Under the pieces are notes generated by a model, which saw only the letters and a program-made list of their open reading frames with translations, did no database searches and was not told the DNA's origin. Made by a program: the position numbers and the translations under genes. Shown in pieces: positions 28,599-55,474 of a stretch of 64,000 nt of DNA (its first letter is position 1; every line of letters begins with the position of its first letter). The stretch comes from Diacronema lutheri (taxonomy: Eukaryota; Haptophyta; Pavlovophyceae; Pavlovales; Pavlovaceae), in assembly GCA_019448385.1 (NCBI GenBank), contig JAGTXO010000014.1, positions 496,001 through 560,000 of the forward strand, given 5' to 3'.

Positions 28599-28701
28599 GC
28601 GCGTGTGGGCCTTTGGGCCTGCTCCGCCTGGCGCCTCGCTGCGCACTTCCTGACCCCATCTGTTGACCCGTCGGAAAGCGTCGTTAGTATATAACAACAG
28701 A

Positions 28702-29560: not shown

Positions 29561-29569
29561 ACGTTGGCT

Positions 29570-29596
29570 CACTTGGGCTCGGTGCGCGGCTCTGCC

Positions 29597-29629
<33 letters not shown>

Positions 29630-31750: not shown

Positions 31751-31844
31751 TCAGAGCATGGCGCCCGCCCGCTCGAGCCGGACCTCCGCGCAGCCGGACT
31801 CGCCCCGCCCCGGGCTGCTCTGGCTGGGCGACGTCGTGCGCGCC

Positions 31845-34690: not shown

Positions 34691-35642
34691 AGCGGTGGCG
34701 AGGCGGCGGCGGCGGCGCTCGCCGCGGCCGCCGTCGCCGCCGCGCGCGAATGCGCGGCGGCGGCGCGCGGTGGCGGCGAGCGCGGCGGGCGCGGCGCGGA
34801 CGGCGCGCGCGGCGCCGGCGGCGGGCGGCGCGCTGGCGGCGGGCGCGCCGCCGGCGCGCGGTGCTGGCCAGCACCCGCCGGCGCGACGCCCGCCGCGCCG
34901 CTCGCGCCGACGCGCAGCCGGCGGATGCTCGCCAGCACCGCGCGCCGCGCGACCGGCCCGCGTACCTGCGCGCCCTTCGCGGGCGCGCAGGGCGGCGCCA
35001 ATGCGGCCGGCGTGCAGGGGCCTCAAGCCGGCGCGCCGCCCGCCGCCGCGTGGGTCGCCGCCACGCGCGTGCCGTCGGCGCTGCCGCCGCCCGGCGTCGC
35101 GCTCGCGCCGCAGCCGCCGCCGCCGCCGTCGCCGCCGCCTGCCGCCTGCCGGCAAGCTGGGCAAGCGCGCAGCGGCGGCGACGGCGGTGCGCGATCCGGC
35201 GAGCAGGCGGCGCGCCGCCGAGCCGGGGGCGGGCTCCGTGGGCGACGAGGCTCGCCCGCCACTGGCACCACTCGCGCGCCGAGCGCGCACAACGCGCGGG
35301 AGCCCGCTGCGTGGCCGGACGAAGCTGCGGTCACGGCTGAGGGGCGGATCCGACACGCCGTGGCCGTACAGCACATCGAGCAGGGAGGCCGTCACATCGA
35401 CATGAATTTAAGTGCCACATCGAGCACGTGATACCCTGCGGACTGGCGCCACTCCTGCCGCCCCTCGCGCCGAGCCCGCGGCGCGCGCCGGGCAGTTGTT
35501 GCGCGCGCACGCAGCACGCAGCGCGCAGACAAGACGTGAAAAATGTGTCGCGGCGAGGACGAGGGCGAGCCCCGGCGGCTCGGCGAGGCGTCGCATCTCA
35601 CACACACAGTGGCGCACTCCGAACGGCCCGGTCCACATTGCG

Positions 35643-35674
<32 letters not shown>
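35643..35674 (+). repeat. Poly(C) tract, 32 nt
   Basis: Uninterrupted C32, the left member of an inverted pair with the G36 tract at 36969. Confidence 0.95.
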
Positions 35675-35675
<1 letters not shown>

Positions 35676-36967
35676 CGCGCGGCTAGCCGACGCGCCGGCC
35701 TCTTGCTCGCGGCTGTAGACCCGGGCGCTGAGGGCCTCGTACATGCCGGGTGGCCGAGGGACAGAAGCCCGTCTCGGTCACGCTCGTGCAGCGCAAGCGC
35801 ACTGCGCACGCGCGGCACGCGACCGCGCGCGAGACGGGCCACCGTGCAGCGCATCGGCCCCCGTCGGCGCCGGGTGCGCCGGGCGGCCGCGCCCTATGCG
35901 GCGCGCGGCGTGGAGCACCGAGGGCGCACGGTGCTGGAGGCCAACGAGCGGGTCAGCTTCACGCGCGCGCACACGCATGTGCGCACGCAGACGCGGCACG
36001 TGCACAACCCGCCCGCGCGGCTGAGCGCGCGGGCGGCGCGGCGACCTCAACTGGCGCGCGTGCACGCTCGCGGCGGCGCGGTTCGAGCGCGTGCATGCGA
36101 CCGGGCGCGGGTTCCGGCCCGAGCAGCTGCTCGTTGTGTGCGGCAGCTGGCTGCACCGGTCGCGCGGCGGCGGCCGTGTGCGAGGCAAGCCGCCCGCGCT
36201 CGGTGAGGGGCTTGCTTTGGGCGCTGCGCCGGCTCGACATCGCGACGACCCTCGTACCCAAGCTGCGGAGATCCAACGGATGCTCGCAGCTGCGCGAGGT
36301 GAAGCGGAAGTGCGCCCGCTCCGAGCGCGACGCCCGCCGCGGACGCCGACGGCGCGCCGCTGGCCCGGCCGCGGCTGGCGGGCCGCGGCCGGTGCGGCGC
36401 GGCACCGGCACGCTGCAGCCGTACGTACGCGCGCAGAGCGCCGGGCGGTCGCAGCGCGTGGCGGGTGGCGCGGCGCGATGCCCGCGGCGGCAAGCGTGAC
36501 TCAGCGCGGCAACGTCGGGAGTGGTGCAGGCGGCGTTGAAGCGAACGAGAAGGTGGACGCGGCGGCGATGAGCGGCCACGGCCACACCGGCGCGTCACGG
36601 CCGCCGCCTCCGTCGCCTCGCGCGCGGAAGCGCGCGCGGCCGGCGCGACGGACGACGGCAGGGGCGTCGGCCGTGGCGGGCGTCGTGGGCGCGCCGCGCG
36701 CCAGCCACGCCGGCCTAGCCGGGCCGTCGTCGGCGTCGTCGTCGTCGGCGGCCTCGTCGTCGTCGGCCGGAACGGCGGCGCACTCGGCGCGAAGGAGGCC
36801 GACGGCAGCGCCGGCGACGCGCGCGTGTTGCCGCCTGCCGACAAGCTCGTCGCGCCGTGCGAGCGCGGTGTCGCCGTGTCGCCCTCGGCGGGCGACGTGG
36901 CGTGCGGCGCACGCGACGTCGACGCGGCCGCTGCCGCACGGCGGAGCAGGCGTGGCTGGTGCGGGGG

Positions 36968-36968
<1 letters not shown>

Positions 36969-37004
<36 letters not shown>
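36969..37004 (+). repeat. Poly(G) tract, 36 nt
   Basis: Uninterrupted G36, about 285 bp upstream of the ATG at 37290. Length may be unstable or mis-assembled. Confidence 0.95.
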
Positions 37005-37006
<2 letters not shown>

Positions 37007-37175
37007 GGTTGGGGGGTCGGTCGATAAGGTCGCTGGGGACAATCTCCCATCAGAAACTCCCGCTTAAACAGCCGCTAGGGCGGCCGCGTCCGGCACGCCC
37101 AGCGCCGCGACGAGCGCGATGCATTCCACGAGCGCAGTGGTACATCGCTCGCCGTGGGGCGCACCACGGGCCTTC

Positions 37176-37182
37176 TATAAAT
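37176..37182 (+). promoter_or_regulatory. TATA box of the large mobile-element gene
   Basis: TATAAAT, within the AT-rich island CTTCTATAAATTTATGAGG, the only one in several kb. It is 114 bp upstream of ATG 37290 and would set the transcript start near 37,205. Confidence 0.5.
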
Positions 37183-37289
37183 TTATGAGGCCAAGAGCGA
37201 CGTCTTATCACACTTTCAAAAGCAGCGGATCAAAAGGCGTCTGCCAATCCGCCCGCGAGGACGACCGACGCGGACGACCAGCACGCGCG

Positions 37290-40200
37290 ATGGCGCAGGA
37301 GACGACCGGCTCGATGCCCATGGCGGCAAGCGTGACCAAGGGCCCCGGCGTCGGAGATGGCGCAGGTAGCGACGAAGCGATCAAGGTGGAGGAAACGGCG
37401 AAGACGAGCGGCGACGGCTGCACCGGCACGCCTCCTCTGCGCCCGGCCGCGCGCGCGGCCGGCGCGGCGGACGACGGAGGGGCGGCGGTCGTCGCGGGCG
37501 TCGAGGGCGAGCGCGACGCACTCGCCAAGACGGGTGCCGGCGGCTGCGACGACGACGCTCGCGAGCCGCTGTCGGCCGGCAAGCCCGGCGCACTCGCCGC
37601 CGCGGCGACCGTCGGGGGTCTCGGCGAGCTCGTCGGCAGCCTATGCGCGTGGCTGGCGCACGGCGCGGCTGGTGGCGCCATCGCGGCCATCTCCCCCGGG
37701 ACGGCCGCGCGCGGAGCAAACGGCACGCCGCAGCGCGCCGAGCCGCCGGCCGCCGGCGATCCCGTCGCTCCGCACGCGTGCGTCGCCGCTGCGGCGCCCT
37801 TGGCGGGCAGCGCGGCGGCGCCGTCGTCGGCCGCGCGCGACGCGCAGCGCGGCGTCGCGGGATTCGACGCGGCCGCGCACGCGCACGCGCGCGACGGCAG
37901 GCGGGCGGCACGGCGGATGCGCAAGCAAGAGGGGGCGGTGCACAGGGCCTTCCGCAAGTCCCTCTGGCGCGACGCGACGTTTGTCGAGTTCGTTGAGAAG
38001 CTGCGCCCCGACGGCAGCGCGCAGCTGCTCGCGCGCGAGCCCACGCGGCACGCGGCGGCGGTGCTGTGCGAGCTCGCGCGCGGCCGCGACGGCGCGAGCG
38101 GCGCGGCCGGGCTGCTGCACGAGATGAGAGCCGCCGATGCGCGCGCGCGCGAGGCCGCCAAAGCGGCGGAGGCAGCGCGGCTTGCGCACGGGACGCTGCG
38201 CATCGTGGCAACCGTGGCGCTGGGCGGTGCGGTCTTCGCCGGCATGTCAGCGCTGGTCGTTGCTTGCGCGGCGCGCACGGCGACCGGTGCGCTTTTTGGG
38301 GCCCGCCGCCCGCGGGCGGCCGCGCGCGGAGCCGACGACGCGCTCGGCACGCTGCAGCGCGCCGAGCCGCCGCCCGCCGACAAGGGCAAGCGCAGGCGCG
38401 CCAGAGCCAACGACGACCCCGTCGACGCGGCGCGCAAGGCCGTGGGCAAGGCGGAGGGCAACTGCCGCAAGGCAGCCCGCCGGCTGCACCTCGCTGCACT
38501 GGGCGAGGAGGAGGCGCAGCAGCGCGTGCTCGACGCCGAGGCGGCGGAGCAGCTGGCGCGCTCGCGCGAGCCGGCCGGCGGCTGGGTAGGCAGCGCGCGC
38601 GCGCGCGCGCGCCCCGCCGCGCGCGCGCCCGTCGATTGGCGTGCGCGCAGCGCAGAACGGCGCGCCAGCTCCGTCACCTGCGCGCCGCCGCGCCCGTGCC
38701 CCTCGCGCGCAGGGGCGCCCTGCGGACTTGCGGCTGCAACAGGCGCACTTTGGCATTCGCGAAGATGCCGACGCGGATGTGCGCCGCGCGCACGAGGCGC
38801 TGCGCCGGGCGAGACAGGGTGTGGCGTGCGCCAAGGCCAACGTGCGGCAGATGGAGGCGGCGTTGCTCAACGCGACGCGCTGCGCCACCGCGGTGCTCGC
38901 GCCGCGTGGCGTGCCGGAGGGTGACGAGCAGGCCGCGGCGAGAGAGCAGGCGGCGCTGGACCGGGAGGCGCCGCCGGCCGCGGAACGCGCGGCGCCGACG
39001 GCGCGCTCGCCCTCGGAGCTGCCGTCCGAGTGGGGCCCGCCAGCGGTCGGCCGGCGCCCGACGCCGCGTGCACTGTCGCACGCCGCGGGGTGCGGGGACG
39101 ACAACCCGTTTGCGCCGCTCGCAACCGTCAGCGGTGATTGGTCGCCCACGCCGAGCTTGCGCCCGCCGTCCTCGCCGCCGCGGCAGCCGCCGTCCGACCG
39201 CCGCAGCGCGCAGCGTCGCAGCGCGCGCGCGCGGCCGCCGAGGCCGACCGTTTCACCCGAGGAAGCGCTCGCAGCCGAGCGCCAGGCGCGCGCGCTGTCG
39301 GAGCAGGCGGAGCAGAGGCGCGCCAAAAAGGCCGCCGCCAAGGCCGCGCGCCGCGCCGCGCGCGCCGCCGACAAGCGGACGGCGCGCGTCGTCCACGCGT
39401 GCGTAAGCGCCGCCTTGCAGCGCGTCTGCACGAGCGTCGCCACGGGCACGCCGCTCGCCGTGCTCCGCGAGCGCGCCGAGAGGCCGCGCGCGCCGAAGGC
39501 CGCGCCCGCGCCACCACGCCGCGCAGCGGACGGCGGCCGCGCGCTCCGCCACGCGCGCCGTGCGGCCGATGCGGCGGCGGAGCGCGAGGCGGCGGTGGCG
39601 GCCGACGCCGACGAGCGGTTCGAGCGGCAGCCCTCCGCCGCCCGGTTCGACGGCGGCGATGGCGGCGGAGGCGGCCACGTCGAGGCGAGCGCGCGACCGC
39701 GCGCCGGCGAGGCCGGCGAGGCTGGCGCGCACGGCGCGCCTGGCGCAGCGGGGCCCCCGGCGGCGTCGCTCGCGTCGCGCAGCCCGTGTGATGCGCGGCG
39801 CACGGCACGCCTCCCGCACGCACGCGCCGCAGCCACCTACGCAGGCAACGGCGGCTGGGGTGGCAACGTCGGCGGCGACGTGTGCGGCGATTGTTTCGGC
39901 GGCGGCGGCGTCCGTCGCGACGCCTGCGGCGGCGGCGACGCCACCTGCGGCTGCGGCGATGGCGGCGTCGGTGCTGGCGCTGGCGAGGCCCCCTGCACAC
40001 GGTGCGCCGGCGCGCGCGACGGCGTCGCGCTTGCTGCGCTTGCTCGGCGCGCCACGCGCCGTGCTCGGTGCGATGGCGCACGCCGCGGCCGTGTTGGCGC
40101 GCGGCGTGGCCGCAGCCGTCGCTGGCGTGCGCGCCGCCGCGCGCGCCGTGCGGCGCGCGCGCCGCCGAGCGCCTTGCGCGCGCCGCACGGCTGCGCGGCG

Positions 40201-43200
40201 CGCTCGCAGCCCGCCGATGCGCGACGTCGACGGCGCCCTGCGGCCCTCACCGTCCTGGCCGCGCACACGCCTCGTCTGCGGCCGGCGCCTCGCGCCTCTG
40301 CGCCGCGCGGGCGCGCGCCCGCCGCCCGCACACGCCGCGCCGAGTTCCCGCGCGCGCGCTGCGCAACCCGACAGCGACGCGCCGGCGTGCGCGCCGCGGC
40401 GCTCGGCGCCTGTCGGTGCGCCGCCGCGCGCGCGTGGCCTGTGCGCGGCGCGCGCACGGCGCGTCCTCGACGTCGCCGGCCGCGCGGCGCGGAGCGCGCG
40501 CCTCGGCGCGCGCATCACGCGCCAGCGCACGCCGGGCCCGTCATCGGAGCCCTGCACGGCCGAGAGCGGCGACGGCGCGGGCGCCGGCGGCATCGGCGCG
40601 GCGGCGCCTGGCGCGGCGACGATGCGCGCCACCGGCGCGCGCGCAGCGCGCGCTGCGGCGGCGGCGGTCGGTGGCGCCTCGCGTCTCGCGCGCCGCGCGA
40701 TGGCAAGCGCCGCCGCCGCTGCCACCTCCATAGCCGGCGCTGCCGCCTCCACCGTCGCCGCCGCCGCCGTTGCCATCGGCGCGGCCGTCACGTCACCGGC
40801 GTTCGCCGCGGCGCGTGGCATGGCGGCCGCATGCGTCGCTGCCTGCGCCCGCCCCACCGCCGCGCAGGCGGCCGCGTCGCGCGCGCTCGGCGCGCTCTTC
40901 GTGCTCGTCGACGCGGCCGACGCGGCGGGCGACAGCGACGCCGCGCTCGGCGCGCTCGCGGCCGCGGTCGACGCGACGGAGCTGCGCCCGCCGCCGGCCT
41001 TTTGGCGCGCGGGCCGCGCCGCGGCGTACGCACCGCGTCCGCCGCCCCTCAACTCGGCGCGGCTTCGCTACAACCGGCGCGCGCGCGCACCTAGCCCTCC
41101 CGTCGCGGCCGCGCCGCGCAATCTCGAGCGCGCGGTGCGCGAGCTCACGCGCGCCGCGCGCGCTGAGCGCGAGCGCGCGCCGGCGCCGCGCGGCGCGCGC
41201 GGCGGCGTGCTCCACGCGCTGCGCGCGTCGCTCCCCGTGCACGCGCGCGTTGCGCTCGGCACGGACGCGGAGCTGCGCGCGGACATTGCCGCGTTCGCGC
41301 GCGCGCGCCGCGAGCTGCACAGCTTCACCGACGCCGAGGTGGCGGCGCTCGCGCGCCCGGACGGGCCGCCGCTGCCCGTGCGGCTCGCGTGCACGGCGGT
41401 CGCGCGCGCGCGCGGCGTGACCGTGCTGCTCGACATCGTGCCGCGCGGCGGCGGCGCACCCGAGCGGCTCGTGTGCCGCGCCCGTCGCCGCGGCGCCGCC
41501 ACGCGCACGCCACGGCCGACAGCCGCCGTTATCGCGCGCGCGCCTTGCATAGCGGCGCGCGTTGGCCACACTGAGCCGGCGCGCGCGTGCGCGGGCGGAC
41601 CGATCGGGGTCGTGCGCCTCCGTTCAGCGCGCCGCCGTTCTTGGCGTGGGGCGCGGCTCGACGTGCACACCCGCGAGCGGCTGGCCACACCGGTGCCATG
41701 CCACGTCGTGGCCTGCGCCGCCGCCTCGGCCATCGGCGCGTGCGTCGCTCGCGCGCGGCTTGGGCTTGCACGGCTGGCGCGCGCGTGGCCCTGCGCCTCC
41801 GCTCCACTAGCCACTGCTGCTGTCGCCTTCGCGCCTGCCGCCGACGGTGTTTTCCCCGCCGCACTAGCCGCTCCTGCATCCGCCTTCGCGCCTGCCGCCG
41901 ATTTTCCCGCCCCACTAGTTGCTCCTGCATTCGCCTCCGCGCCTGCCACCACCGGCGTTTTCCCCGCGCCACTAGCCGCTCCCGCTGTCGCGTCCGCGCC
42001 TGCCGCCGCGGGCGTGTCTTCCGCCCCACTAGTCGCTGCCGCTGCCGCCCTCCAGGCCGCCTCCGACGGCGTTTTCCCCGCCCCACTAGTCGCTGCCGCT
42101 GCCGCCTTCCAGGCCGCCTCCGACGCCTTTTCCCCCGCTCCACTAGCCGCTGCCGCTGCCGCCCTCCAGGCCGCCTCCGACGGCGTTTTCCCCGCTCCAC
42201 TAGCCGCTGCCGCTGCCGCCCTCCAGGCCGCCTCCGACAGCGTTTTCCCCGCCCCACTAGTTGCTCCTGCATTCGCCTCCGCGCCTGCCACCACCGGCGT
42301 TTTCCCCGCGCCACTAGCCGCTCCCGCTGTCGCGTCCGCGCCTGCCGCCGCGGGCGTGTCTTCCGCCCCACTAGCCGCTCCTGCATCCGCCTTCGCGCCT
42401 GCCGCCGATTTTCCCGCCCCACTAGTTGCTCCTGCATTCGCCTCCGCGCCTGCCACCACCGGCGTTTTCCCCGCGCCACTAGCCGCTGCCGCTGCCGCCC
42501 TCCAGGCCGCCTCCGACGGCGTTTTCCCCGCCCCACTAGTCGCTGCCGCTGCCGCCCTCCAGGCCGCCTCCGACGGCGTTTTCCCCGCCCCACTAGTCGC
42601 TGCCGCTGCCGCCCTCCAGGCCGCCTCCGACGCCTTTTGCCCCGCTCCACTAGCCGCTGCCGCTGCCGCCCTCCAGGCCGCCTCCGACGGCGTTTTCCCC
42701 GCTCCACTAGCCGCTGCCGCTGCCGCCCTCCAGGCCGCCTCCGACAGCGTTTTCCCCGCCCCACTAGTTGCTCCTGCATTCGCCTCCGCGCCTGCCACCA
42801 CCGGCGTTTTCCCCGCGCCACTAGCCGCTCCCGCTGTCGCGTCCGCGCCTGCCGCCGCGGGCGTGTCTTCCGCCCCACTAGCCGCTCCTGCATCCGCCTT
42901 CGCGCCTGCCGCCGATTTTCCCGCCCCACTAGTTGCTCCTGCATTCGCCTCCGCGCCTGCCACCACCGGCGTTTTCCCCGCGCCACTAGCCGCTGCCGCT
43001 GCCGCCCTCCAGGCCGCCTCCGACGGCGTTTTCCCCGCCCCACTAGTCGCTGCCGCTGCCGCCCTCCAGGCCGCCTCCGACGGCGTTTTCCCCGCCCCAC
43101 TAGTCGCTGCCGCTGCCGCCCTCCAGGCCGCCTCCGACGCCTTTTGCCCCGCTCCACTAGCCGCTGCCGCTGCCGCCCTCCAGGCCGCCTCCGACGGCGT

Positions 43201-44346
43201 TTTCCCCGCGCCACTAGCCGCTGCCGCTGCCGCGTCCGCGCCCGCCGCCGCGGGCGCGTCTTCCGCCCCACCAGCCATCGCCGCCGCGCCCGCCGCCAAC
43301 GCGCGCACCGCCAACGTGCCCGTTGCCAACGAGGCTACCGCCACCGAACCAGCCGCCCTTGAGCTTCCCCTCCAACCCGCCAACTCGGCGCTGCTTGCGT
43401 GGGCGGGCGACGCGGCTGCGCGCCGGCTGGCCGCCGCCGCCGCGAGCGCCGGCCTCCCGCAGGCAGAGGTGGAGCGCATCGCCAGCGGCGACATGCTCGC
43501 CTCAACCGTCGACGCGTGCTGCGAGGTCGTGCTGCGCGTGCACGGGCAGGCCGGCGGCGGGCATGTCTGCCACGTGCCGCTCGCCGCGCAACCCGCGGTG
43601 TTTCAGGACGACGCCGAGCGCGCCGCGCTGCTGCACCGCCTGCGCAGCGAGGCGACAACGCAGGCTGTCATCGGCGTGTGGAGCCCGTCGGACGAGCGCG
43701 GCGGCGCGGGCGGTGACGACGGCGCGCAGCTCGCCTCCGGCCATTTCACCGCGTTGCGCCTTGTGCGCGTCGCGCGCGCGGGCGAGCATCGCTACGACGC
43801 GGTGCTCGTCGACACGCTCGCGTCGCCCTGCAGGCAGGCGCTCATGCTCGCCAAGGCGATAACTGCCACGCTGCACGCGGCGGGTCTCGACATTTCGCGC
43901 GTGCGCCGCGCGCTGCTGCTCAACGAGGCGGCGCAGCGTGGCGCGACGTGCGGCCTCGCGATAGTGGGCGCGCTCAACGACGCGCTCGCCGCGGCGGGCT
44001 GCTCGTCCGCGCCGCGCACGTTCAGCGTGGCGGACATGTACGCTGTCGGCGAGCGCCTCCGCGTCGCGCTGACCGGCGCGGCCAGCGATCGTGCGCCGGG
44101 CGGCGTCTGCGCGGTCACGAGCGCGGTGCGCGGCGGGGGCAGCCCCGATGGCGCCGAAACGCCGCCGCAGACGCGCGGCGCCAAGGCCGCCGCTGGCGTC
44201 ACCGCCGCCGCCACCGCCGCCGCCACGCCGCCGCCGCCCGCGCTGGGCGCCGCCGCCGCCGCCACCGCCGCCGCCGCCGCTGCTGCCGCCGCCGTGGCCG
44301 CGCCGCCACCGCCGCCACCGCCGCCGCCGGCCGGCGACGCGGGCGA

Positions 44347-44419
<73 letters not shown>

Positions 44420-47400
44420 GCCGCGCGCACGTTCTTGAAGCTCGCGCCCAGGGCGCGCGCGGCCGCCTCGGCGCGTGAGGCGTTGCGCGCCGCGTGTGCG
44501 CGCGCGGACGCGGCGGCGTCGTCACACGCGTCGGCGCCGCACGCGCCCGCCGGTGCGCGCCGCCGGCGGCGCGCGGGCGCAGGCGAGCTGGCGCTCGCGG
44601 CTGCGCGCGCGCTCGCCTCGACGGAGCACGGCGATTTGACGGACGACGCGCTCGAGGCCGCCGTCGAGCAGGAGCTGGGCGACGAGCGCGGCCAACTGCT
44701 GCTGTGCACGCGGGGCGCAGCGGCGCAAAGGCCCGCGCTTTGCCGGCTCCTGAAGCACGCGTGCGCGTCGGCGCGCGCGGCGAAGCGCGCGCAATTCACG
44801 GTGTTCGTCGTGCGCGCGGCCACGCGCGGCGAGCGGGGGGGCGCCGCCGCGAGGCGCGTGGACTCGGTGGTCGAGCTGTCGTGCGCGCTGCACGAGAAGG
44901 CGGGCGCGCTCGGCGGCCTCCAGCGCGTCTGTGTGCGTGGCTTCGCCCTCGAGCGCCGCCGGACACTCGACGCTGGCGCCGAGGCCGGCGCGTCCGCCAT
45001 CGGCCAGGACGAGCAGGTCGAGGCAGAGGCGGGCGAGGCGTGCGTCGCCGGCGTGACGATGGCCAAGCAGCTGCGTCAGTTTGCCGAGCAAGCTGCCCGC
45101 GACGACGTGCTCTTCCACGTCGCCGTGTCCGAGGCCGACGCCCACGCCCGGCTGGCGCGCGTTGCGGGTGACGATGTCGGCGCGTACAGCGTCGTGCTCG
45201 CAGTCGCCGGGCTCGTCTGGCTGGCCAAGGCCGACGAGGTTGCGCCGGCGGCCGCCCAGCCCGCCGCCGTGCCGCCCGCCGCCCCGCCTGCTGCCGCCAC
45301 GTCCGCCGACGCCGAGCGCGACGCCTCGCCTTCCGACCGCCTGCGCGCGCTGACGCTCGCCGTGCGAGTCGCGCTCGCGCGCGGCGTGCTGCGCCACCTC
45401 CTCGCCGACGCGTCGCCGGGCGCGTCCGCGACCGCTGGCGGTAGTTGCGCGACGCCCGTCGAGGCGGCCACGTCCGCCGCCGCGCCGCCCGCCACGGGCG
45501 TCGTGACGAGTGGCGTTGCGGCGGGCGCTGTGGCGGCCGCACCGGCTGCTGCGGGCGGTGCGATGGCGGGTGCATCGCCCATCACGCGGCCGGCGAAGCG
45601 CGCGCGGCGCACGCTCACCGCCGCTCCAGCCGCCTCGGCCGTTGCGGCCGCTGGAGGCGCACGCGCGGGCGCACGCGGCGCGGCCGGCGCGCCTCGCGCG
45701 CGCGCCGCGCGCGCGCCGGCCGAGTACGTCTGGCTTGCCATCGCGCGCCGGATGCTGGCGGCGCGACACGCGGCGGCCGCGGGCGGCGACTTTGTCGCGT
45801 CGTGCGTCGCCGCGATGCAGGCCGAGTACGGCGACGGCTGTGCCGTCGTCGTCGGCGACGCGCCTGATGACGCCTTGGTCGAGGCTGCGGCGGCGGCGCT
45901 GCTCGAGGGCAAGCACGCGGCGGTGAGCCTCGGCTGCGTCGACCGGCCGGCGGTGCTCGTCGTGCAGCGCGCCGTGGACGCGCCCACGTCGCGCGTGCAC
46001 GGGTGGTGCGCGCACGCGGCGGGCGCCGCCGAGTTTGACGAGGGCGCCGCGCACGGCGTGTTCAACGCGATCGTCGAGCGCGCGTGGGCGCTGCGTCCGG
46101 ACCCGGCCGACGGCAGCCCGCCGCCCACGCGCACGTGGGAGGTCGAGCAAATCGCTGGCGACGCGCCCGACCAGGCGGGCGTGGCCGCGCTGCGCGTGCT
46201 CTACGCGCTCGTCGCGGCGCACGGCCGCTACCGCTCGGCCGCCGCGCTCTTTGGCGCGCTCGCGCAGCTGCACGCGCCCGACGCCGCCGGCGCGCGCGCG
46301 GAGGTCGTCGCGGCGGCGTGCGCGGTGCCGCCCGGCGCGCGGCCGGGCGCCGCGCCGGCGGCCGCGCGGGACGACGCGAGGGAGCGCGCATGGGACGGCG
46401 CTCAGATCGCCGCGCTCGCCGTCGGCGCGGACGCTGCGCGCAGGCGTGTCGCGCCCGTGCGCGCGCTCGTCGACGCGCTCGGCACGCCACCGACCTCGGC
46501 GATCACGGGCGGGCCGGCGGTCCGGCTCGCGGGCGCGGGCGACGGCGGCCACGGTGCACGGTGGGTGGGCGGGCAGGCGGCGACGCCCGCCGAGCAGCTG
46601 CCGAGGGAGCTGCTGCGCGCCTACCACGAGGCGGTGCTGTGCGTCACGCCCGGCAGCCTCCAGCTCGGCCCGGCGGCGCTCGACGCGGTCACGCGGCCGC
46701 GCGAAAACGACACGCTGGAAGGCCTCCTCGCGCGCGTCAGCTGGCAGTGCGGCGCGAGGGCGAGCACGTGCGCCATGCTCGCCACGTTTTCCGAGCAGGC
46801 GGGCACCGGCTCGCGCGTCGCGCTCAAGGCCCTCCGCACGAGCTCCGACCTGGCCGGGCTGACGGCGGCTGCGGTCGGGCAGCAGGCGCCGCAGACGCCG
46901 CCGCCGCCGCTTCTCGTGATGCTCGGCCGCTGCCCCAGCCCGCTCGTCGGCGGCGGCCTCTTCCCGCCCGACCGCGCGACGGGCGAGCCGGCGGTGCACG
47001 CGGCGACGTCCGAGCTCGCCGTCGAGCTGCTGCGCGACGCGCGCGCGCTGGCCGGCACGGACGGGCGGCTCGTCGTGCTGTGCCTCGAGGCGTCCAACCC
47101 GCTCTGGTTCTGCCCCAAGGTGCGCGAGCTCGAGCTGCCGCGGACGCGGTCGGACGGCGTGCGCGCGTCCGTCTGCACCTGCCCTGCGACGTGCAGCGAT
47201 GCGCGCGGCGCGGCGGGTGGCGCTGCCCGCGGCGCATCGACGCGGCCGGCGGCGCGCGCGATCAACAAGGCGGTGCTCGACCACTTCGTCGCGCTTTTCG
47301 GCCGCGAGGGCTTCGCGACCTTTGAGTTTGCGGGCGGCGGCGAGGCGAGCTGGCTGTTCGACAGCGCGGCCGGCACGACGACCGTCGCGGCGTGCGCGTC

Positions 47401-50400
47401 GCTGCCGCCGCGCATGGGCGATGGGCAGCTGGCCATCCGGCGGCACACGCTCGGCACGGGCGCCGACGCGCCGGCGCACGCCGTCGTCTCGCTCCGCGTC
47501 GCGCACGTGAGCCACGCCATCCGCCGCGCGGCGGACGACGGCGGCGCGCGCGCCGAGCGGATGGCGCGCGCCGCGCGCGCGTTCTGCGATGTGGCGGCCG
47601 CGCTGCGCGTCGACGCGATCCTGGCGGAGGTGCCCGAGGACCGCCCGACGGGCACGCCCTTCCTTGGCGGGCTGCTCAAATGTTGGGACAAACGCAACGG
47701 GAGCTGGACGGCGCCAGCCACGCTCGCGCTCGGAGACGTGCGCGAGGTGGCCAAGCGGACGGCCGACGCAGCGGCCGGCCGAGCGGACGAGGTCCCTGCG
47801 GCTGGCCGTCCGCAGGTCGCGGCGCGCGCGTGCGCTGGCGCGATTGGCGGCGGCGCGGGCGCGGCGGGCGCCTCGGACGCTGCGCCGCGTGCACTGGCGG
47901 GCGCGTCGGGTGCGCGCACGGACGGCGGCCCTGCCGACGCACCGCGCCAGCTGGAGAGCCGCTACGGCGAGGCGAGCAAGCTCGACCTACCCCAAGATTC
48001 CACTACGGGCCGCGTCCTCGACGCTCGCGAGGCCCAGGACCGCGCGCGCGTGCCTGCTGCGCCCGACGGCACAGCGCTGCGCCGCGTGCTCGACGCCGTC
48101 GGCGCGGGCGCGCCCGCGCAGCGCAGCCCGCGCTGGCACGACGAGCGATGGGAGGAGGTCACGGGCAGCAAGGTTGGCGACGTCGTGAACGACAACGCCG
48201 GCGTCGCGCACGAGACGCTCACCGACGAGTACGTGCACCGGCGGCGGCGCGAGGTGCGGACCAAGGCGACGACCGCGGGCATCCTCGGCGAGGCCGTCGC
48301 GCTGCGCAAGCTGGCGGCCGCGTACGGCATCACCGTCGTGTGCAACCTGCCGATGGTGCGTGCGGACCCGCACGACAAGAGCGCGCCGTTCGCCTTCTCG
48401 CCGGACGGGCTCGCCATCCTCCCCGAAAACAACGAGCAGGTCCTCGTCGAGGTGAAGACGCTCACCAAGGCGGGCGCCACGGCGCACGAGGACGGGCCGC
48501 CGCAGCCGCACCGCGATCAGCTGCAGCTCGGCATGCACGTCCTCGGCGTGAGCAAAGCGCTCTACGTGCAGTACCTCAGGCACGAGGACCGGATCGTCGT
48601 GCACGTCGTGACGCGCGGCGCCGGCTGGCTTGCATTCGCGCAGCCGAGGGTGCAGGCCTTCTGGGCGCGCGTCGTCGAGCGGCGCGCGCGGCTCGAGCGC
48701 GCGCGCGCCGACCACCCGGCTGCGAGCCGGCGGCACCGGCGGCAGCAGACGCCGGCCGGGCCGCCGCTCGTGCTCGCGCTGGACGGGCGCATCCCCGCCG
48801 CGCGCGCCGCCGCGCTGCACGCCGTCGCGCACGGCACCGCGAGCGCGGCGGCGGTGACGGCGGCGGCGGCGACGGGCGACGCGACGGCGTTGCAAGACGC
48901 GATCGCGGCGCTGCGCGCGCCCGTCGGCAATGCGGCGATCGACAGCGCAGCGCGTGCGGAGCGCGCGGCCGTCGAGCGGGCGATCGCGTACCTCGGGCAG
49001 CCGGCAGGCGACGCCGCCGCCCGCGGCACGGCCGAGGCGGCCGAGGAGGAGAGGACGGTCGACGCCGACATCTGCGCGTTGCTGCACCAGCTCGGCGCGA
49101 GCGTGGCGCACGTGCACGTCGAGGACGCGGATTGCGTCACGCGTGAGCACTGGGGCGGGGCGGTGCTCGCTGCAGCGGGCGACCCGTCGAGCGCCCCCGC
49201 CATTTCGAGCGTCATCGTCGCGCACATCGTGCGCCTCGCCGGCTTTGGCGTCGAGCTCCCGCAGTCGATTCGCGTCGCCCCCAGCACGGCCGACTGGCAC
49301 GAGGGCTGGCTCGACGTGCAGTGCGTGCTGCTGCGCACGCGCCGGCGCGGGCGGCGCGACGACGACTTTGTGGCCGTCGTCAGGCGCGGTGGGCGCTGGT
49401 TTGCGTGCGAGCCCGGCCGCGCGCGGCGGCTGCAGTGGCGGTCGGTCCTGCGCCGCGCGCGCGGCGGCGTCGACGGGACCGGCGAGGAGGCGTTCGCGGT
49501 CGTCTACGTGCGGCGCGGCGACGCGGCCGGCGACGCGGCTGGCGACGCGCAGGCCGAACGGGCGCGCGGCGGGCGCGCGCGCAGGCGCACGCGCGGCGGC
49601 ACGCGCAAGCGCAAGCGCGGCGCCTCCGCCGGGCTCGAGGCGGCCGCGCCCGCCGGCGCGCCGGCGGGCGCTGCTCACCGCCCGCCCGCCAGGCGTGCCA
49701 CGGTCGCCGCGCGCACCACGCGCTCTGTGACCGACGCGCGGCACTCGGCGCCTGCCGCCACGGTTGCACCTGTCTTCGACTGGCGCGCCGGCCGCCCGCC
49801 CCCTGCCGCCGCCGCCGCCGCCAAGCGCGGCCAGGCGCTCGAGCCGGGGCAGTTCGCGCGGCCGCGTGGGCGCGCGCCATGGGGCAAGGTCTGGGACAGA
49901 GTCTCGGGTGCGTGGGCGGACAAGCCGACTGGTGCTGCCGTCGCCGCCGCGCCGCCGCCGCTGCCGCCCGCCGCCGCGCCGCCGCCCGCCGCCGCGCCGC
50001 CGCCCACCGCCGCGCCGCCGCCCGCCGCCGCGCCGCCGCCCGCCGTCGCGCCGCCGCCCGCCGCCGCGCCGCCGCCGCCGCCGCCACCGGCGGCGCTCGG
50101 CCGCCGGCAGCACGTCGGCGCGGGCGGCAGCGCGGCGGGCCGGCGGCTCGCGGCCATCGCACGGCGGCAGCGCGGCGTGCGCGCGCCGCCGCCCGCCGCG
50201 CGCTTCCTCGCCACGCTGCCGCCACCGCCACGCGACGGCCTCGCGCGCACGAGCAAGCAGGCGCGCGCGAGGCGCAACGCGGACGGACGGCCGGCGCACG
50301 CGCGCGCGGCCAACGCGCGCGCCTTCTACCGCGGCGTGGAGCTCGGCGTGCACGCGACGCGCGCCATCGTCGACGCGCGCCACGCCGACCTGCCGCAGGC

Positions 50401-53400
50401 CGTCTTCGTGGCGGAGGCGCGGGCGATCGTCGCGCGCTCCGCCGGCGGCGGCGCGCTGCTCGCGCCGGACGACGTGCGCGACCTGTGCGACGCGCAGACG
50501 GACGCCGATCGCGCTGCGATCTGGGCGTCGGTGGGCGCGCACGAGGCGACGCGCATCTTCGCGCTCGTCACGCGCAACGCGAGCTTGGCGGGCGCGGCGC
50601 TGCTCGTGCTGCACACGCCGGCGGGCGCGCCGGCGCGCGCGCTCGGGCTCGTGGCGACGCGCTCGCGCGCGCCGTCGACGGGCGCGCCGCGCGACGCGCA
50701 CAGGGCGCTGGTGCAGCGGTTGGACGTGCTGATGGACGCGATCGCCGCGGCGCGAGGCGCGTCGCCGCTCGAGCTCGAGCTCGCGCTCGCGCCCGAGCCG
50801 CAGAGCGCGTGCAACGCGCGTGCGGCCGCGCTGCTCTGCCTGCAGGCCGTCGCGGACGCGAGCGGCCGTCCCGCCGCTGAGGACGCGCTGGCCGCGCTCG
50901 ACGACGCGCGCGGCATCGACCGGCACTGCCACGCCGTCCGGCAGCAGATCGAGGCGAAGCTCGCGTGGCGGCGCGCCGACGGCGCCGTCGGCGTTGACGG
51001 CGCCGACGGCGCGCCCGCGCTCGCGCCTGCCGCCGCACCGCCGGCGTGCGCGCCGGCGCACGCTGCCGGCGAGGCGGCGGTCGACCAGGCGATCGTCACG
51101 CGGGTGCGCGACGCGCTGCGCGCGTGGGCGACGACTGGCACCGCGCCCAGCGCGGCGGTGCTCGACGACGCCTGCGCCGCGTACACGGCCCGCGCACGCG
51201 CGCGCAAGGACGCGCGCACGGCGCTGGGCCCGACGCGCGCGGCCGAGCTGCTCGCCGCGGCCGCGCGCGGCGGAGCCGACGGGGCGGATGCCGCGCGCGC
51301 GCTGCTCGGCGGCACGCCGCGCCTGCTCGTCGTGCTCCTCTGCGTGCCCGTCGCCGCGCCGTCCGGCGAGCCGCCGCGCCCGGTCGGGCTGCTCGTCGCC
51401 GACCGGCCGACGGACGACTCGCGCCCGGCCGCGCTCGTGCGCTACGACTTTGCGCCGCTCGACGCGGACGTGGCCGTCGCGGTCGGCGCGCATGCCGTCG
51501 CGCTGGCCAGTGCGATCTGGCCGCTGCTCGCGGCCGAGGGGGAGCCGCGGCCATCGCCCGTCGTGCGCTCGCAGCCGCGCGGCGGCGACGATGGCGCGCG
51601 TGCGCTCGCAACGTTCGCGTGCCTCGACGCGCTGATGACCGCCAGCGTCGGCGCGCACGGCCTCGCGGGCGGCGCGGGCATGCTGCCCGCGCTGGTCGCG
51701 CGAGGCGCCGCGGCCGCCCAGCGCGAGCGGCAGCTGCGCGCGGCCGCCGAGAGGCTGGGCGGCACGGTCGCTGGGTGGCCGGACACGGGCGCGAGCGCGG
51801 CGGGCGCGAGCGTCGACGAGGAGGCGCGCACGTACGAGGTCGAGGCGGTCGTCGACGAGCGCCGCAAGGCGGGCAAGAAGGTGACGTTCCAGTTCCGGAT
51901 CAGGTGGCGGGGCTACGACGAGAGCGCCGACACGTGGGAGCCTGAGGCCAACGTGAGCAGCGACCTCGTCGCCCAGTTCCGCAAGACGCGCGACGAGCAG
52001 AAGCGGCGCGCGGGCGTATCGGGCAGCGGCAGCGGCGGCGCGGGCGCGGCGTCGGCATTGGCGTCGGCGCCGCTTCGCGCGCACGGCGAGTCGGGCGCCG
52101 CGGGCAAGCGCGCCGCGGCGGGTGCCGCCGCGAGCGCGCGCGACGCCGCGGGCGCGCGCGCGCCGAGCGTTCCCCGCGCGCGCGGCGTCGAGCGCGCGCG
52201 CGTGGACGAGCCCGCTGCGCCGAGCGCGCGCGCCGCCGGCGGCGCGACGGCGCGCACGCGCGTCAGCGTGCTCCCGGGCTTCGTGGTCAAGCGCTCGACG
52301 CTCAACGCGGGGCCGCAGGCGGTGACGGCGCAGCCCGGTGCGCGGAAGGAGCTGCGGCGCATCGCGGCGGCCGTGCACAGGCTCACGACACAGGCGTACC
52401 GCGTCATCAACAAGGTGGTGCGCGACGAGGCTGCGGTGGCGAGCGCGCAGGCCGTCGGCGCGGCGTCGGGCGGCCCGTCGACCAGCGTGCACACGTCGAC
52501 CACGATGGACAAGGGAACCGTCCGTGCGATCTTCTCGGCCATCGGCTGGCACAAGGACGAGAGCACGTACGGTGCAGCGCCCCGAGGCAAGCCCGCCGAG
52601 CAAGCCGCCGCGCAGACCAAGGCGGCGACGGCGCGCGCCGTCGGCGAGATGGCCGAGGGCGTCCAGCCCGTCTGCGCGGTGGGCCTCACGGAGATCCTCG
52701 AGGCGGAGGCGACGCAGGTGTCCACCGCGTGCCTGATGCATCCATCGCGCGTCGTGAACGGGCTGCTCCGCGACGTCGTCCGCGCGGCAGTCGAGCGCGA
52801 CGAGGCGCTCGTCGCGCTGCCCGAGATGCAGCGAAACGCGCGCGTGCGCGAGCTGTGCGAGCGGCTGCTGCGCGGCGACGTGGAGGGCGCGCGCGTCGGC
52901 TGCCCCGCCGCGCTCGACCGCCACCTGCCCGACATGGTCCTCCACAAGATCGACTACAAGTGCACGCCCACGAAAAGGTGGAACTACGACCGGCACACGA
53001 CGCGCTACTTCCTCGTGCAGATCCGCACCCTGCAGCACGTGGCCGAGGGGCAGGCGCTGCTCTGCCGGCTCGCGCACATCCACACGCAGCTGACCGGACG
53101 GCCGCCGCGGTACAATGTGGCGCCGCTGCGCACGCACAATGTGCGCGCGAGGCGTGGCTGCCGCTGCCGCCGCCGAGCGCCCAAGCGCGCGCGCCGCCGC
53201 CGTGCGCGCCGCCCCGCGGCCAGGTTGGTCACGCGCCCGCGCGCTCGCGCGCCGCGCGCTGCGCGCAGGTGCCGCGCAACGTGCGCCTCGCCGCGAGCGC
53301 CATCTGGGTGACGCTTTCGGATGACGAGCGCAAGGAGCTGCGCGCGCGGCTCAAGGCGCTGGACCTGCGCGACCACGATGGCGAGCCGATCAAGTGGACA

Positions 53401-54993
53401 GGCACAAACGGCAACACCCCGCCGATGTCGGACGTGCGCGTCAGGTACGCGGTCTTTGCGACGCGCTTCGACATCTCCAACCGCGTCTTCGACTACGCCG
53501 GGCGCGAGCGGCCGCCGGCCGATCTGCCGTGGCACGCGCGGCGCTCGTGGGTTGGCCTCGCGCCGCTGCCGCGCGTGCCGCTCCCGGGCCGGCAGCCCGT
53601 CAAGTCGGTGGTGACAGATGGCGTCGCCGTGCACGCCGTCGGGACCGTCCTCGTGCCGAAGGCGCAGGCGCCGGCCGGCGGCTCGGGCGTCCTGCACCGC
53701 TGGCGCCGGCCGGACGGGCGCATCGCCGTCGCGCTCGGCTCCGAGCTGCGGCGGGCGATCGACGTCGAGGCGGCGGTCGTCGTCGCGGCCGACCCGAACA
53801 TGGGCAACATCACCACCTACTCTGCGCACGTCGGGCGGGCGGCCGTCTGGCGGCAGTTCACGCAGCGCGCGCGCGCGCGCGCCGCGGGCTTTGCGCGCGA
53901 GACGGCCAAGACCAACGCGGCGCGGCGGCGCGTGCGCAAGGACGGGCGCGGCGAGGAGTTCAGCGTGGAGGCGGACGAGGCGCGGCTTGGCGAGGCGCAC
54001 AGCGCCAAGGTGCTCGGCGAGGGCGAGTTCCACGCCTTCCACCGCGAGAGCGCGCGGGTGCGCGAGCGCGCCGCCGAGCACGTGTACGACGCGCCGGCGC
54101 GCCGGAAGGAGCGCTGGCGGCGCGACAGCGGCGGGCGGTCCAACGCGGCGCGCGTCGCCGAGGCGCTCATCGCGGCGCACTGTGTCGACGGCGTGACGCG
54201 CGACCGGCTGCTCGTGTGCGTGGGCAAGTGGCTGCGCGACCACAAGGGCGCGCAGCCCAAGGGCGCGCCGCCCGCCTTCCAGGTGGGGCTGCTGCGCGAG
54301 CTGCGGCGGCGCGGCGTCGCGGCCGTCTTCGTGCCCGAGCCGTACACGTCGATGCACTGCTCGATGCCGCGGCTCGCCAAGGGCGGCAGGCTGCAGCGCT
54401 GCGGCGCGGAGCTCGCGCAGAACCCGCGCCTGCCCGTGGCAAAGGGCGGCACGCGCACGGTGCACGCGCTCGTCATCTGCCCGGCGTGCAACGGCGGCAA
54501 GAAGCCCGTGCACCGCGACTACAACGCCGCGCGCAACATCTTCTACGACGTGCACGACATGGCGGCGCACGCGGCCGGGCGCGACACCACGTCGACGCCT
54601 GAGCGCTTTGCCCTCGTGCTCGCCTGGTGGGCGCGCGGCGAGGTGTGGGAGCGTGAGGAGCGCATGGTGCACGGCGAGGGCGACGACTGCGACGACGAGT
54701 GCGACGGCGACGACGAGGGCGACGACGAGGGCGACGACGACGACGACGACGATGGCAGCGGCGACGGCGGCGGCGGCGAGGGCGACGGCGACGGCGACGG
54801 CGACGGAGGCGGCGGCGGCGACGACGACGATGACGGCGGGGGAGGCGGCGGCGGCGACGGCGGTGGCGACGACGGCGGCGGGCGCGGCGGCGGTGGCGGC
54901 GGCGGCTCTCGCGCCCGCACCCCCGCCCGCGGAGCTGCCAGCGCCAGTGCCGGCGGCGGCAGCGCGCGCGGGCCGAAGCGCGGCCGGCGTTGA
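37290..54993 (+). CDS. Giant multidomain mobile-element gene (C48 protease, YqaJ nuclease, chromodomain, Fanzor)
   Basis: Best model: exon 1 37290-38585, intron 38586-38712 (127 nt, GTAGGCAG to CGCGCAG, phase 0), exon 2 from 38713, an intron in the 39.62-39.84 kb region (one phase-0 option is 39679-39832), a ~13.3-kb exon to 53140, intron 53141-53268, and the last exon 53269-54993; roughly 5,700 residues if a single gene. The N-terminus (MAQETTGSMPMAASVTKGPG) is Ala-rich with a possible hydrophobic helix (VATVALGGAVFAGMSALVVA) and a coiled coil (ADADVRRAHEALRRARQG) that spans the first junction, supporting that splice. Then come a long repeat, an Ulp1-like domain and degenerate relatives, a YqaJ-type nuclease, a chromodomain and a Fanzor nuclease (separate entries). 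A stop-free frame of 4,583 codons is exceptional even at this GC. Whether it is one polyprotein-like gene or several adjoining genes with unseen introns is not decided. Confidence 0.55.
38586..38712 (+). other. Predicted 127-nt intron of the giant gene
   Basis: Donor GTAGGCAGCG after the codon for Trp in PAGGW, acceptor CTCGCGCGCAG; phase 0. Splicing moves the reading to the frame that encodes the helix GRPADLRLQQAHFGIRED. Confidence 0.6.
41810..43270 (+). repeat. 57-bp tandem repeat with 507-bp higher-order period, in frame
   Basis: About 25 units of 54-57 bp encode 18-19-residue repeats such as VFPAPLVAAAAALQAASDG and VFPAPLVAPAFASAPATTG. Unit types A (ALQAASDG), B (FASAPATTG), C (VASAPAAAG) and D (AFAPAAD) recur in the same order: identical junctions at 42251 and 42758, and at 42416 and 42923, give a 507-bp (169-codon) super-repeat. 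Every unit is a multiple of three, so the large frame is preserved. It probably forms an extended Ala/Pro linker between the N-terminal region and the protease domain. Confidence 0.95.
43390..44070 (+). other. Ulp1-like (C48) cysteine protease domain, catalytic residues present
   Basis: Domain within the giant frame. ASGHFTALRLVRVARAG gives the His, YDAVLVDTLASP the Asp, and NEAAQRGATCGLAIVGALND the oxyanion Gln and nucleophilic Cys in the C48 pattern Q-x4-C-G. Upstream helices (GDAAARRLAAAAASAGLPQA) precede the core. C48 enzymes cleave SUMO-like modifiers or polyproteins; Ulp1-type proteases also occur in several plant and protist transposons. Confidence 0.62.
44160..44420 (+). repeat. GCC trinucleotide (poly-Ala) and CCG (poly-Pro) tracts
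   Basis: Interrupted then pure GCC repeats, the longest about 44,350-44,415, encode runs of up to ~22 Ala after a Pro9 stretch. A flexible linker between protease-like domains. Confidence 0.9.
44600..46280 (+). other. Two degenerate C48-like domains
   Basis: First (44,600-45,230): FTVFVVRAATRGERG aligns with the active copy's HFTALRL strand but has Gln for His; RVDSVVELSC matches the Asp strand and GQDEQVEAEAGEACVAGV the Gln...Cys helix with changed spacing. Second (45,725-46,280): VLVVQRAVDAPTSRVHGW, then WEVEQIAGDAPDQAGVAALR, where the Cys-Gly position is Gln-Ala. Both keep the helix-strand order of the intact domain but not its catalytic set. Assignment is by eye. Confidence 0.4.
46590..47760 (+). 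other. Unassigned Cys-containing region of the giant protein
   Basis: Well-structured sequence without a recognised family: PRELLRAYHEAVLCVTPGSL, LLVMLGRCPSPLVGGGLFPP, LVVLCLEASNPLWFCPKVRE, VCTCPATCSDARG (a possible metal site), VLDHFVALFGREGFATFEFA and AILAEVPEDRPTGTPFLGGL followed by LKCWDKRNGSW. It lies between the protease-like region and the YqaJ nuclease and may be a nucleic-acid-binding or second nuclease domain; nothing decisive is visible. Confidence 0.35.
48090..48690 (+). other. YqaJ/lambda-exonuclease-type nuclease domain
   Basis: PD-(D/E)xK exonuclease core inside the giant frame: QRSPRWHDERWEEVTGSKVG (the R-x2-W...TGS start), GILGEAVALRKLA (motif Glu), FAFSPDGLAIL (catalytic Asp), QVLVEVKTLT (ExK) and PHRDQLQLGMHVLGVSKALY (the downstream Gln motif). 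All expected residues of the YqaJ viral-recombinase family are present. Such enzymes resect double-strand ends 5' to 3' before strand annealing, and occur in phages, large viruses and some eukaryotic transposons. Confidence 0.82.
49070..49540 (+). other. Josephin/papain-like fold, apparently inactive
   Basis: ISSVIVAHIVRLAGFGVELP, DDDFVAVVRRGGRWFACEPG and EEAFAVVYVRRGD follow the Josephin order (helix, 'HW/F-x-x-x-R...W' strand, final strand), but the His is Asp and no catalytic Cys is placed. Low confidence, by eye. Confidence 0.25.
49935..50098 (+). repeat. Pro/Ala 'PPPAAAP' coding repeat
   Basis: Tandem 21-bp units (CCGCCGCCCGCCGCCGCGC) encode a PPPAAAP linker between the nuclease region and the following domains. 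Confidence 0.9.
50330..51650 (+). other. Two further degenerate C48-like domains
   Basis: First (50,330-50,890) ends LELALAPEPQSACNARAAAL, with Q-x2-C but no CG. Second (51,080-51,650) has LLVVLLCVPVAAPSGEP, ALVRYDFAPLDADVAVAVGA and VVRSQPRGGDDGARALATFA; the last matches the C48 consensus Q-P-N-G-x-D-C-G with Asp replacing the nucleophilic Cys. Together with 44,600-46,280 this gives four protease-like modules lacking the catalytic set. Confidence 0.4.
51815..52005 (+). other. Chromodomain
   Basis: TYEVEAVVDERRKAGKKVTF followed by QFRIRWRGYDESADTWEPEA and NVSSDLVAQFRKTRDEQKRR: a complete chromodomain with the aromatic cage positions (Y, W, and the aromatic at TWEP). It recognises methylated histone tails; in retro- and DNA transposons it directs integration to particular chromatin. 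It is in frame with, and ~85 residues N-terminal to, the Fanzor part. Confidence 0.88.
52262..54993 (+). CDS. Fanzor nuclease (eukaryotic TnpB/IS605-type RuvC protein)
   Basis: C-terminal module of the giant frame, or a gene of its own. N-terminal wedge/recognition part 52262-53140 (RTRVSVLPGFVVKRSTLNAG, KIDYKCTPTKRWNYDRHTTR); 128-nt intron; then 53269-54993. RuvC-I is VVVAADPNMGNITTYSAH (Asp codon 53791), RuvC-II is VAAVFVPEPYTSMHC (Glu codon 54337), and RuvC-III is PVHRDYNAARNIFYDVHD (Asp codon 54517), all catalytic acids retained. The zinc-ribbon region has TSMHCSMP, QRCGAEL and ICPACNGG, with one expected Cys of the first pair displaced. An RNA-guided DNA nuclease function is known for Fanzors; here it is inferred. 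The C-terminus is an acidic Asp/Gly tail (54,680-54,900) ending GPKRGRR, a likely nuclear signal. Confidence 0.88.
53141..53268 (+). other. 128-nt intron inside the Fanzor coding region
   Basis: Donor GTGCGCGCGAGG (the window's consensus donor), acceptor GCTGCGCGCAG, phase 0. It joins YNVAPLRTHN to VPRNVRLAASAIWVTLSDDE and exactly corrects the frame change, so the gene is spliced, not frameshifted. Confidence 0.8.
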
Positions 54994-55474
54994 CGCACGG
55001 CCGAGCCGCGCAGCGGTCGACGCTTTGCGGGCTCTGCCCAGGTCGCGCGCGGCTGGCGACGCGTGCCGCGCGCGGCACGACCGTGCACGCCGCCACCCGT
55101 GGCCGAGCGCGCCGCACCAGCCGGCCCGCTCCAACCGCCGTGCGGATCACGGACGCTCGCTACGGCTCGTCGGCGCGCGTCACCTGCGCCGGCGGCCACG
55201 GCGCCGTCTGCTCCGGCCTCGTCGCGAGCAGCCCGACCGCTGCTCGCCGCCCGCACGCCGCCGCAGCAACGCTGCGCGTCGTGCTCCCCCGCTCGCCAAA
55301 CGCGAAGAGCTCCCTCACAAGGACGTCCTTCCGAACGGCCCGCGCTGCACTCGGGGCGCGATCGTGCCCCTGATCGGATTTGGCTTGACCATCTATACAC
55401 AGAAGTGTGAGTGTGCCCGTGATGTGCCATGTGATGCCGCGTGGGTGATCACCGACCAGTGAGTGTGAAACTAC
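54994..55474 (+). other. Non-coding stretch downstream of Fanzor; candidate guide-RNA and element-end region
   Basis: No gene recognised. In TnpB and Fanzor loci the guide (omega) RNA is typically transcribed from the 3' end of the ORF into the adjacent element end, so this 480-bp GC-rich stretch is where one would look. Its last 90 bp become AT-richer with TGTG-rich direct repeats. Confidence 0.3.

Follow-up and report, generated by a model that had tools for sequence, protein, structure and literature searches.

A chromodomain in frame with a Fanzor1-type nuclease and a RecE-like exonuclease in a high-copy mobile element from Diacronema lutheri (Haptophyta)

In the marine haptophyte alga Diacronema lutheri, a RecE-like exonuclease domain, a chromodomain with an aromatic cage and, after an intron, a Fanzor1-type RuvC domain lie in a single reading frame, with a PIF1-like helicase gene upstream. 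The whole is carried by a young, high-copy mobile element that has recently multiplied. We favour, with moderate confidence, the reading that the tail of this giant frame uses a chromatin-tethered Fanzor, together with the exonuclease and the helicase, to spread the element or to keep its copies. The window, that is, the whole stretch of 64,000 nucleotides that was analysed, corresponds to C85:496001-560000 in a genome of 43,492,796 bases in 103 contigs. The available text of the genome paper (PMC8379373) gives 43,502,671 bp, 103 contigs, 73.25% GC and 22.9% repeats, states that the gene models were made by BRAKER2 with RNA-seq, remarks on a read N50 of about 24 kb, and has no word starting with "transpos". 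Chance open frames are long at the local GC content, one on the minus strand reaching 1,787 aa; the openness of a frame alone is thus weak evidence, and codon-phase GC was used instead. Copies were compared in an alignment of 31 sequences: the window, nine copies from contig starts, 20 further ones and the older copy L078, which is 96.7% identical over 7.0 kb and has an unchanged domain order. The features of the window are collected in Table 1.

Table 1. Features of the mobile element copy in the window, in window coordinates.
Feature	Position	Strand	Basis
Mobile element copy, 26,520 bp	28879..55398	+	similarity to other copies ends at both borders
PIF1-like helicase gene	32245..34115	+	Pfam matches in two frames and coding-phase signal
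Giant open frame, first large exon (stop to exon end)	39407..53140	+	clear coding signal from about 43.2 kb
Possible Ulp1/C48-like cysteine protease motif H..D..Q..C	43742..43951	+	by eye only
RecE/YqaJ-type exonuclease domain, in frame with chromodomain	48110..48685	+	PHROG_434
Chromodomain, complete aromatic cage Y51833, W51905, Y51914	51833..51985	+	PF00385, 49.4 bits
Presumed Fanzor N-terminal half (exon 1 part)	52271..53140	+	coding phase and position
GT-AG intron, 128 nt	53141..53268	+	copy alignment and gene models
Fanzor C-terminal half	53269..54990	+	PF07282, Fanzor similarity, profile match
3' non-coding end of element, expected place of guide (omega) RNA	54994..55398	+	position only

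The initial annotation of this DNA had placed a chromodomain in frame and N-terminal to a Fanzor-type nuclease. This arrangement held: PF00385 scored well above its curated cut-off of 25.1 bits, and the spliced frame was open up to the TGA at 54991-54993. The chromodomain aligned with CDY, CDYL and CBX5, its nearest solved relatives being CDY, CDYL and HP1-type chromodomains. The three columns that we take to be the aromatic cage in these alignments all hold aromatic residues, and these were the same in 31 of 31 aligned copies. The domain is therefore predicted to be a methyl-lysine reader. Two Pre-SET domain matches above cut-off were found in the genome; Pre-SET is a mark of H3K9 methyltransferases, which makes an H3K9 methylation system plausible. 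Position 51815 does not mark a start, the reading frame being free of stops from 39407 onward. Upstream, the closest ATGs are at 51635 and 51680, and the first one downstream, at 52505, is already within the presumed N-terminal half of the Fanzor.

The intron that had been proposed to join the two parts was borne out, with GT at 53141, AG at 53268 and an open spliced frame. Both dinucleotides were kept in 31 of 31 aligned copies, seven of which have a two-base insertion within the intron (130 nt). Five published gene models cross the junction: four (P0002, P0003, P0004 and P0006) read THNV followed by PRNV like the spliced window, and P0005 departs from it at the junction. Judging by these protein sequences, the intron is probably present at the loci of the four concordant models. 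A metagenome relative, P0007, about 40% identical, opens precisely with exon 2's first codon, as expected if it has the intron too. One of the gene models, P0002 (KFE25_006464), joins a piece of this Fanzor that spans the intron position to SAM domains.

Downstream of the intron, the RuvC acids D53791 (RuvC-I), E54337 (RuvC-II, at the alternative position) and D54517 (RuvC-III), singled out in the earlier reading, were all read in the spliced frame, along with G54223 and the zinc-ribbon cysteines C54358, C54400, C54478 and C54487; the tail is acidic and Gly-rich from about 54670. The HMM search that had been suggested as a check gave 28.5 bits for PF07282 (cut-off 26.3) at 54301-54540, PF00385 also being above cut-off. 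PF07282 (Cas12f1-like_TNB) covers the zinc-ribbon/RuvC-III part, and the prokaryote model guided_TnpB of NCBIfam reached 14 bits against a cut-off of 100. The Fanzor1 motif given in the accessible text of PMC3627910, D-X(125,275)-[TS][TS]-X-X-C4 zinc finger-X(5,50)-RD, was found as D53791, 184 residues, T54346-S54349, M-H, the C4 finger, 8 residues and R54514-D54517. E54337 lies six residues before C54358, which is where the part of PMC10711439 available to us puts the alternative RuvC-II Glu, six residues ahead of the zinc finger. The same part describes DPG at RuvC-I as "near exclusively" found, whereas the window Fanzor has DPN; this rule is not absolute, since the SpuFz1 alignment also has DPN. 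The catalytic triad, G54223 and the zinc ligands were the same in 31 of 31 aligned copies. For these residues, as for those of the cage, such identity is only modest evidence because the copies are young.

Similarity to known Fanzors was found by profile. Exon 2 was 25% identical over 338 residues (E 5e-9) to L069, another Fanzor of D. lutheri, and a profile built from the window Fanzor, L069 and L074 had SpuFz1 (8gkh) as its best PDB match (E 2.6e-5), followed by TnpB chains, Parasitella Fz1 (0.0043) and Guillardia Fz1 (0.026). The window Fanzor sequence alone found no Fanzor in the PDB, and the SpuFz1 match may therefore lean on L069 and L074. The N-terminal half (52271-53140) had no database match of its own and was only loosely alignable with the second D. 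lutheri Fanzor. These comparisons confirm the predicted nuclease as Fanzor1-type with a complete catalytic triad; its motifs further suggest that it could be guided by RNA and cleave DNA. Other Fanzor families in this genome are L069 (C85:896500-903000), L074 and L077. Both L069 and L074 have the DPG motif, as does the metagenome relative P0007, and L069 was without a chromodomain match in the stretch read. Among the best 150 of 306 matches of a zinc-ribbon search of the genome, 13 had one identical score, L069 being one of them. Searches of viral contigs confirmed no close relative of exon 2, of P0007, of the exon with the chromodomain or of the exonuclease.

The first description implied a compact chromodomain-Fanzor gene. 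The fusion stands but the compactness does not, as the two domains are the C-terminal part of a giant reading frame, about 4,500 codons long, in which the RecE-like exonuclease is also encoded. Third-codon-position GC indicated a single coding phase from about 43.2 kb to 53.1 kb, a comparable signal being present at about 39.9-41.7 kb, and the phase switched to the exon-2 frame just past the intron. In the genome, 83 of 146 chromodomain matches (best 150 of 260 candidates) lie within frames of at least 4400 aa, and the frame lengths obtained from the chromodomain and from the exonuclease agreed, for example 4513 aa at C9:1.15 Mb. The exonuclease was assigned to the RecE/YqaJ type through PHROG_434 (RecE-like exonuclease, 60.6 bits, E 2.9e-16), with PF09588 (17.5 bits, cut-off 22) and TIGR03033 (26.7 bits, cut-off 68.05) remaining below threshold. 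It had no PDB sequence match, and no homologue of the region was found among 7999 scored candidates of the protein database at E up to 0.001. When the genome was searched with the same region (best 94 of 244), 93 of 94 matches were stop-free, and the frame around 70 of the 94 reached 4400 aa or more. Low-complexity stretches separate the domains of the giant frame, and no internal repeats of its protein were detected by BLAST. At positions 41799-43276, within the frame, the DNA consists of a 57-base tandem repeat in about 26 copies.

Frames of this size, with low-complexity sequence between the domains, could also encode a polyprotein from which a protease of the element frees the products, leaving the chromodomain and the Fanzor apart or joined in a product of roughly 1,000 aa. 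A pattern H..D..Q..C resembling Ulp1/C48 proteases was noticed by eye in the window frame, and so was a second protease-like H..D..Q..C pattern in the different protein encoded by L020:3594-5999, in the commonest form of the element. The window motif, however, was without support in Pfam, NCBIfam and PDB sequence searches, the two candidate stretches did not align together, and no cleavage sites were identified. The linker between chromodomain and Fanzor, moreover, was free of indels in all 30 copies compared and kept its coding phase. We consider a polyprotein rather unlikely, and return to the reading of a chromatin-tethered Fanzor at the tail of the giant frame.

The element is mobile, as its many copies, sharp ends and differing flanks attest. 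Its left terminus, (C)TATATACGGCGCGG, was found at 21 junctions (the window and 20 of 39 other left ends among the matches listed), two copies, L022 and L090, having a variant form. The right terminus, GACCATCTATAC, was found at 18 of the 21 right junctions read; of the three deviating ones, one (L029) lacks a single base and two (L038 and L039) reach the end of their contig first. The 20 bases next to the element vary between copies, and some flanks fall in the same neighbouring repeat; when right flanks were compared with each other and with the window, 2 of 19 had a repeat in common with the window's left flank. Terminal inverted repeats were sought, and the ends had only 6-mers in common. 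No target-site duplication was seen by eye in paired flanks, except that one copy (L051/L032) has a direct repeat of 13 bases, and short repeats of CTATA type at the ends could belong either to the element or to the target. The repeat at the left flank (repeat R, window 28442-28877; L081-L090) was considered as an empty site and rejected, being itself a mobile repeat: it is a separate high-copy repeat ending in GCGTCGTTAGT (417 first-look candidates, best 40 scored) that directly adjoins the left end of the element in the window, L062 and L090. Another repeat (L032 right flank; L081) starts with CTATATACGGAGCG, nearly the element's own terminal motif, which suggests a related element family.

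Searching the genome with the chromodomain (best 150 of 260 candidates scored) gave 146 matches with near-equal scores, once L001-L004, which were without a match to the window, had been left out; all 33 of those fetched for a check of identity matched the window element. In at least 90 of 113 typed zinc-ribbon matches of the family, a chromodomain lies 2.3-2.6 kb upstream on the same strand, and the other 23 had none among the matches listed. The exonuclease lies 3-5 kb upstream of the chromodomain in at least 65 copies. A search with the left end (best 40 of 290 candidates scored) placed the chromodomain at 27.4-27.5 kb in 21 cases, at 22.4-23.0 kb in four, at 18.0 kb in three and at 9.1 kb in one, while 11, the window's own copy included, had no chromodomain among the matches listed. 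The commonest form of the element would thus be about 31 kb long. In its middle lies a module of which more than 7.7 kb show no real similarity to the window copy (from 35297 onward) at the DNA level; the module was reconstructed from the coordinates of three contig starts, L021, L019 and L020, and no Pfam domain was found in it (10 frames). Among 20 contig starts fetched, 12 (L009-L017, L022, L023 and L025) sit within about 15 bases of a left or right element end, probably because reads with an N50 of about 24 kb are too short for a repeat of 26-31 kb.

Across the aligned copies, the spliced chromodomain-Fanzor frame was intact in 24 of 31. The seven broken frames were those of L010, L012, L013, L014 and L017, all contig starts, and of L047 and L078. 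Indels present in at least three copies were +24, -18 and +3 in the coding part, where there was also a paired indel of -29/-4, 39 bases apart in low-complexity sequence (net -33), and +2 within the intron and the 3' end. Those present in one or two copies were mostly of one base and came chiefly from L010, L012, L014, L017 and L038, which lie at contig ends and are probably poorly assembled there. Compared with the window, dN/dS of the Fanzor was 0.67 (L011), 0.67 (L036), 0.84 (L047), 0.95 (L078), 0.98 (L009) and 2.05 (L012), and in the chromodomain and linker the same six copies together had 22 non-synonymous differences and 2 synonymous ones. There is accordingly little evidence of purifying selection on the Fanzor at the present divergence of the copies. 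Tried as a proof of selection, dN/dS did not provide it, and the chromodomain and linker gave no sign of purifying selection.

Such a pattern would be expected if the Fanzor part were no longer a nuclease, the chromodomain and RuvC fold serving as a chromatin-tethered, DNA-binding tail of the element's replication protein. The 3' end of the element also gave no guide RNA signal, with no Rfam match and no significant fold (z -1.29 and -0.29) in 54994..55398, and DPN stands in place of the usual DPG. Against the loss of nuclease activity, the triad and zinc ligands are unchanged in every aligned copy, SpuFz1, reported active in the available part of PMC10432273, also has DPN, and the 40% identical metagenome relative has DPG. 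We judge this loss quite improbable, and the Fanzor is treated below as a presumably functional nuclease tethered to chromatin.

Helitrons encode a PIF1-class helicase, and a gene of this kind is present in the left part of the element. PF05970 matched once in each of two frames (E 3.6e-14 and 1e-24), and Pif1_2B matched (E 9.6e-14) in one of 73 six-frame segments; the gene changes frame near 33.45-33.49 kb, by an intron or an indel. No transposase or Rep domain was found in the 73 six-frame segments of the left 14 kb (about 28.9-43.3 kb, E up to 0.05). The junction of Rep and helicase that defines Helitron and Helitron2 elements was therefore not found, although a diverged Rep could escape such a search. 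As a transposase was recognised in neither the left 14 kb nor the alternative middle module, there is room for an unrecognised transposase or for homing. It is very doubtful, in our opinion, that the element has no conventional transposase at all and is a chromatin- and RNA-guided homing machine, in which the chromodomain would put the giant protein onto silenced chromatin, the Fanzor would cut where a guide RNA from the right end directs it, and the fused RecE-like exonuclease and the PIF1 helicase would convert the break into a new copy through recombination. Nested inverted and direct repeats of 89-207 nt occupy window positions 30877-31763 in this left part. The idea that the domains are unrelated pieces brought together by chance in one open frame of GC-rich DNA, or by assembly error, draws on the long chance frames of this genome and is refuted for practical purposes, as the arrangement recurs in at least 90 places, the coding phase is unbroken, indels in at least three copies keep the frame overall and the older copy has the same order.

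Several known systems share parts of this arrangement. SpuFz1 (PDB 8gkh) has in common with the D. lutheri Fanzor the RuvC D-E-D with the alternative Glu, the zinc ribbon, the G before RuvC-II and DPN. It is described in the accessible text of PMC10432273 as a roughly 2.1-kb locus with a single ORF, whereas in D. lutheri a chromodomain and an exonuclease precede the Fanzor within one giant frame, of which it is the tail. Fanzor1 genes borne by eukaryotic mobile elements, algal ones included, are already known from PMC3627910, within the text available. The Helitron2 elements CRe-1, 2 and 3 of Chlamydomonas described there are likewise high-copy algal elements with multi-exon Fanzor1 genes. The D. 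lutheri element differs from them in its length of 26-31 kb, in having no Rep domain that could be found, and in a Fanzor frame that holds a chromodomain and a RecE-like exonuclease. According to the same text, CRe insertions frequently lie between duplications of 7-19 bp, after T-rich sites; such duplications were not seen here, except for the possible 13-base repeat in one copy.

A chromodomain attached to a DNA-acting enzyme is known from the integrases of chromoviruses (Gypsy), where it is thought to favour certain insertion sites (PMC2832683, available part). The tethering logic would be alike, as proposed for chromovirus chromodomains, but the partner there is the integrase of a retroelement and here an RNA-guided-type nuclease in what is apparently a DNA element. 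The RecE/lambda exonuclease family of phage recombination shares the nuclease domain recognised by PHROG_434, which in D. lutheri is fused to a chromodomain and a Fanzor in a eukaryotic frame. The supposition of the initial annotation that the chromodomain-Fanzor fusion was undescribed agrees with the literature covered, one major Fanzor survey lying outside this coverage: papers that mention Fanzor or TnpB alongside a chromodomain (PMC6338049, PMC11071296, PMC12898463, PMC11728184 and PMC11747156) contain no description of it in the portions available.

How the favoured machinery might work can be outlined as follows. The Fanzor would bind a guide RNA derived from the right end of the element and flanking DNA, and would cut matching sites, examples being empty sites and other element copies. 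Processing of the break by the exonuclease and helicase could then let recombination copy the element in or retain it. The chromodomain would hold the complex on H3K9- or H3K27-methylated nucleosomes, and this tethering would concentrate cutting or insertion in silent chromatin; we hypothesize that the element is targeted there. As the fusion rides on a high-copy mobile element of 26.5-31 kb, the earlier suggestion that chromatin state could steer a programmable nuclease is best understood as describing something that a selfish element would do.

Why transposons retain Fanzors, which are RNA-guided nucleases of eukaryotes, is a standing question. In D. lutheri, a histone-mark reader and a resection-type exonuclease are attached to a Fanzor in a single frame, in at least 90 places. 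If it is active, chromatin would gate a naturally occurring programmable nuclease; the role of the Fanzor in transposition also becomes directly testable in a culturable alga.
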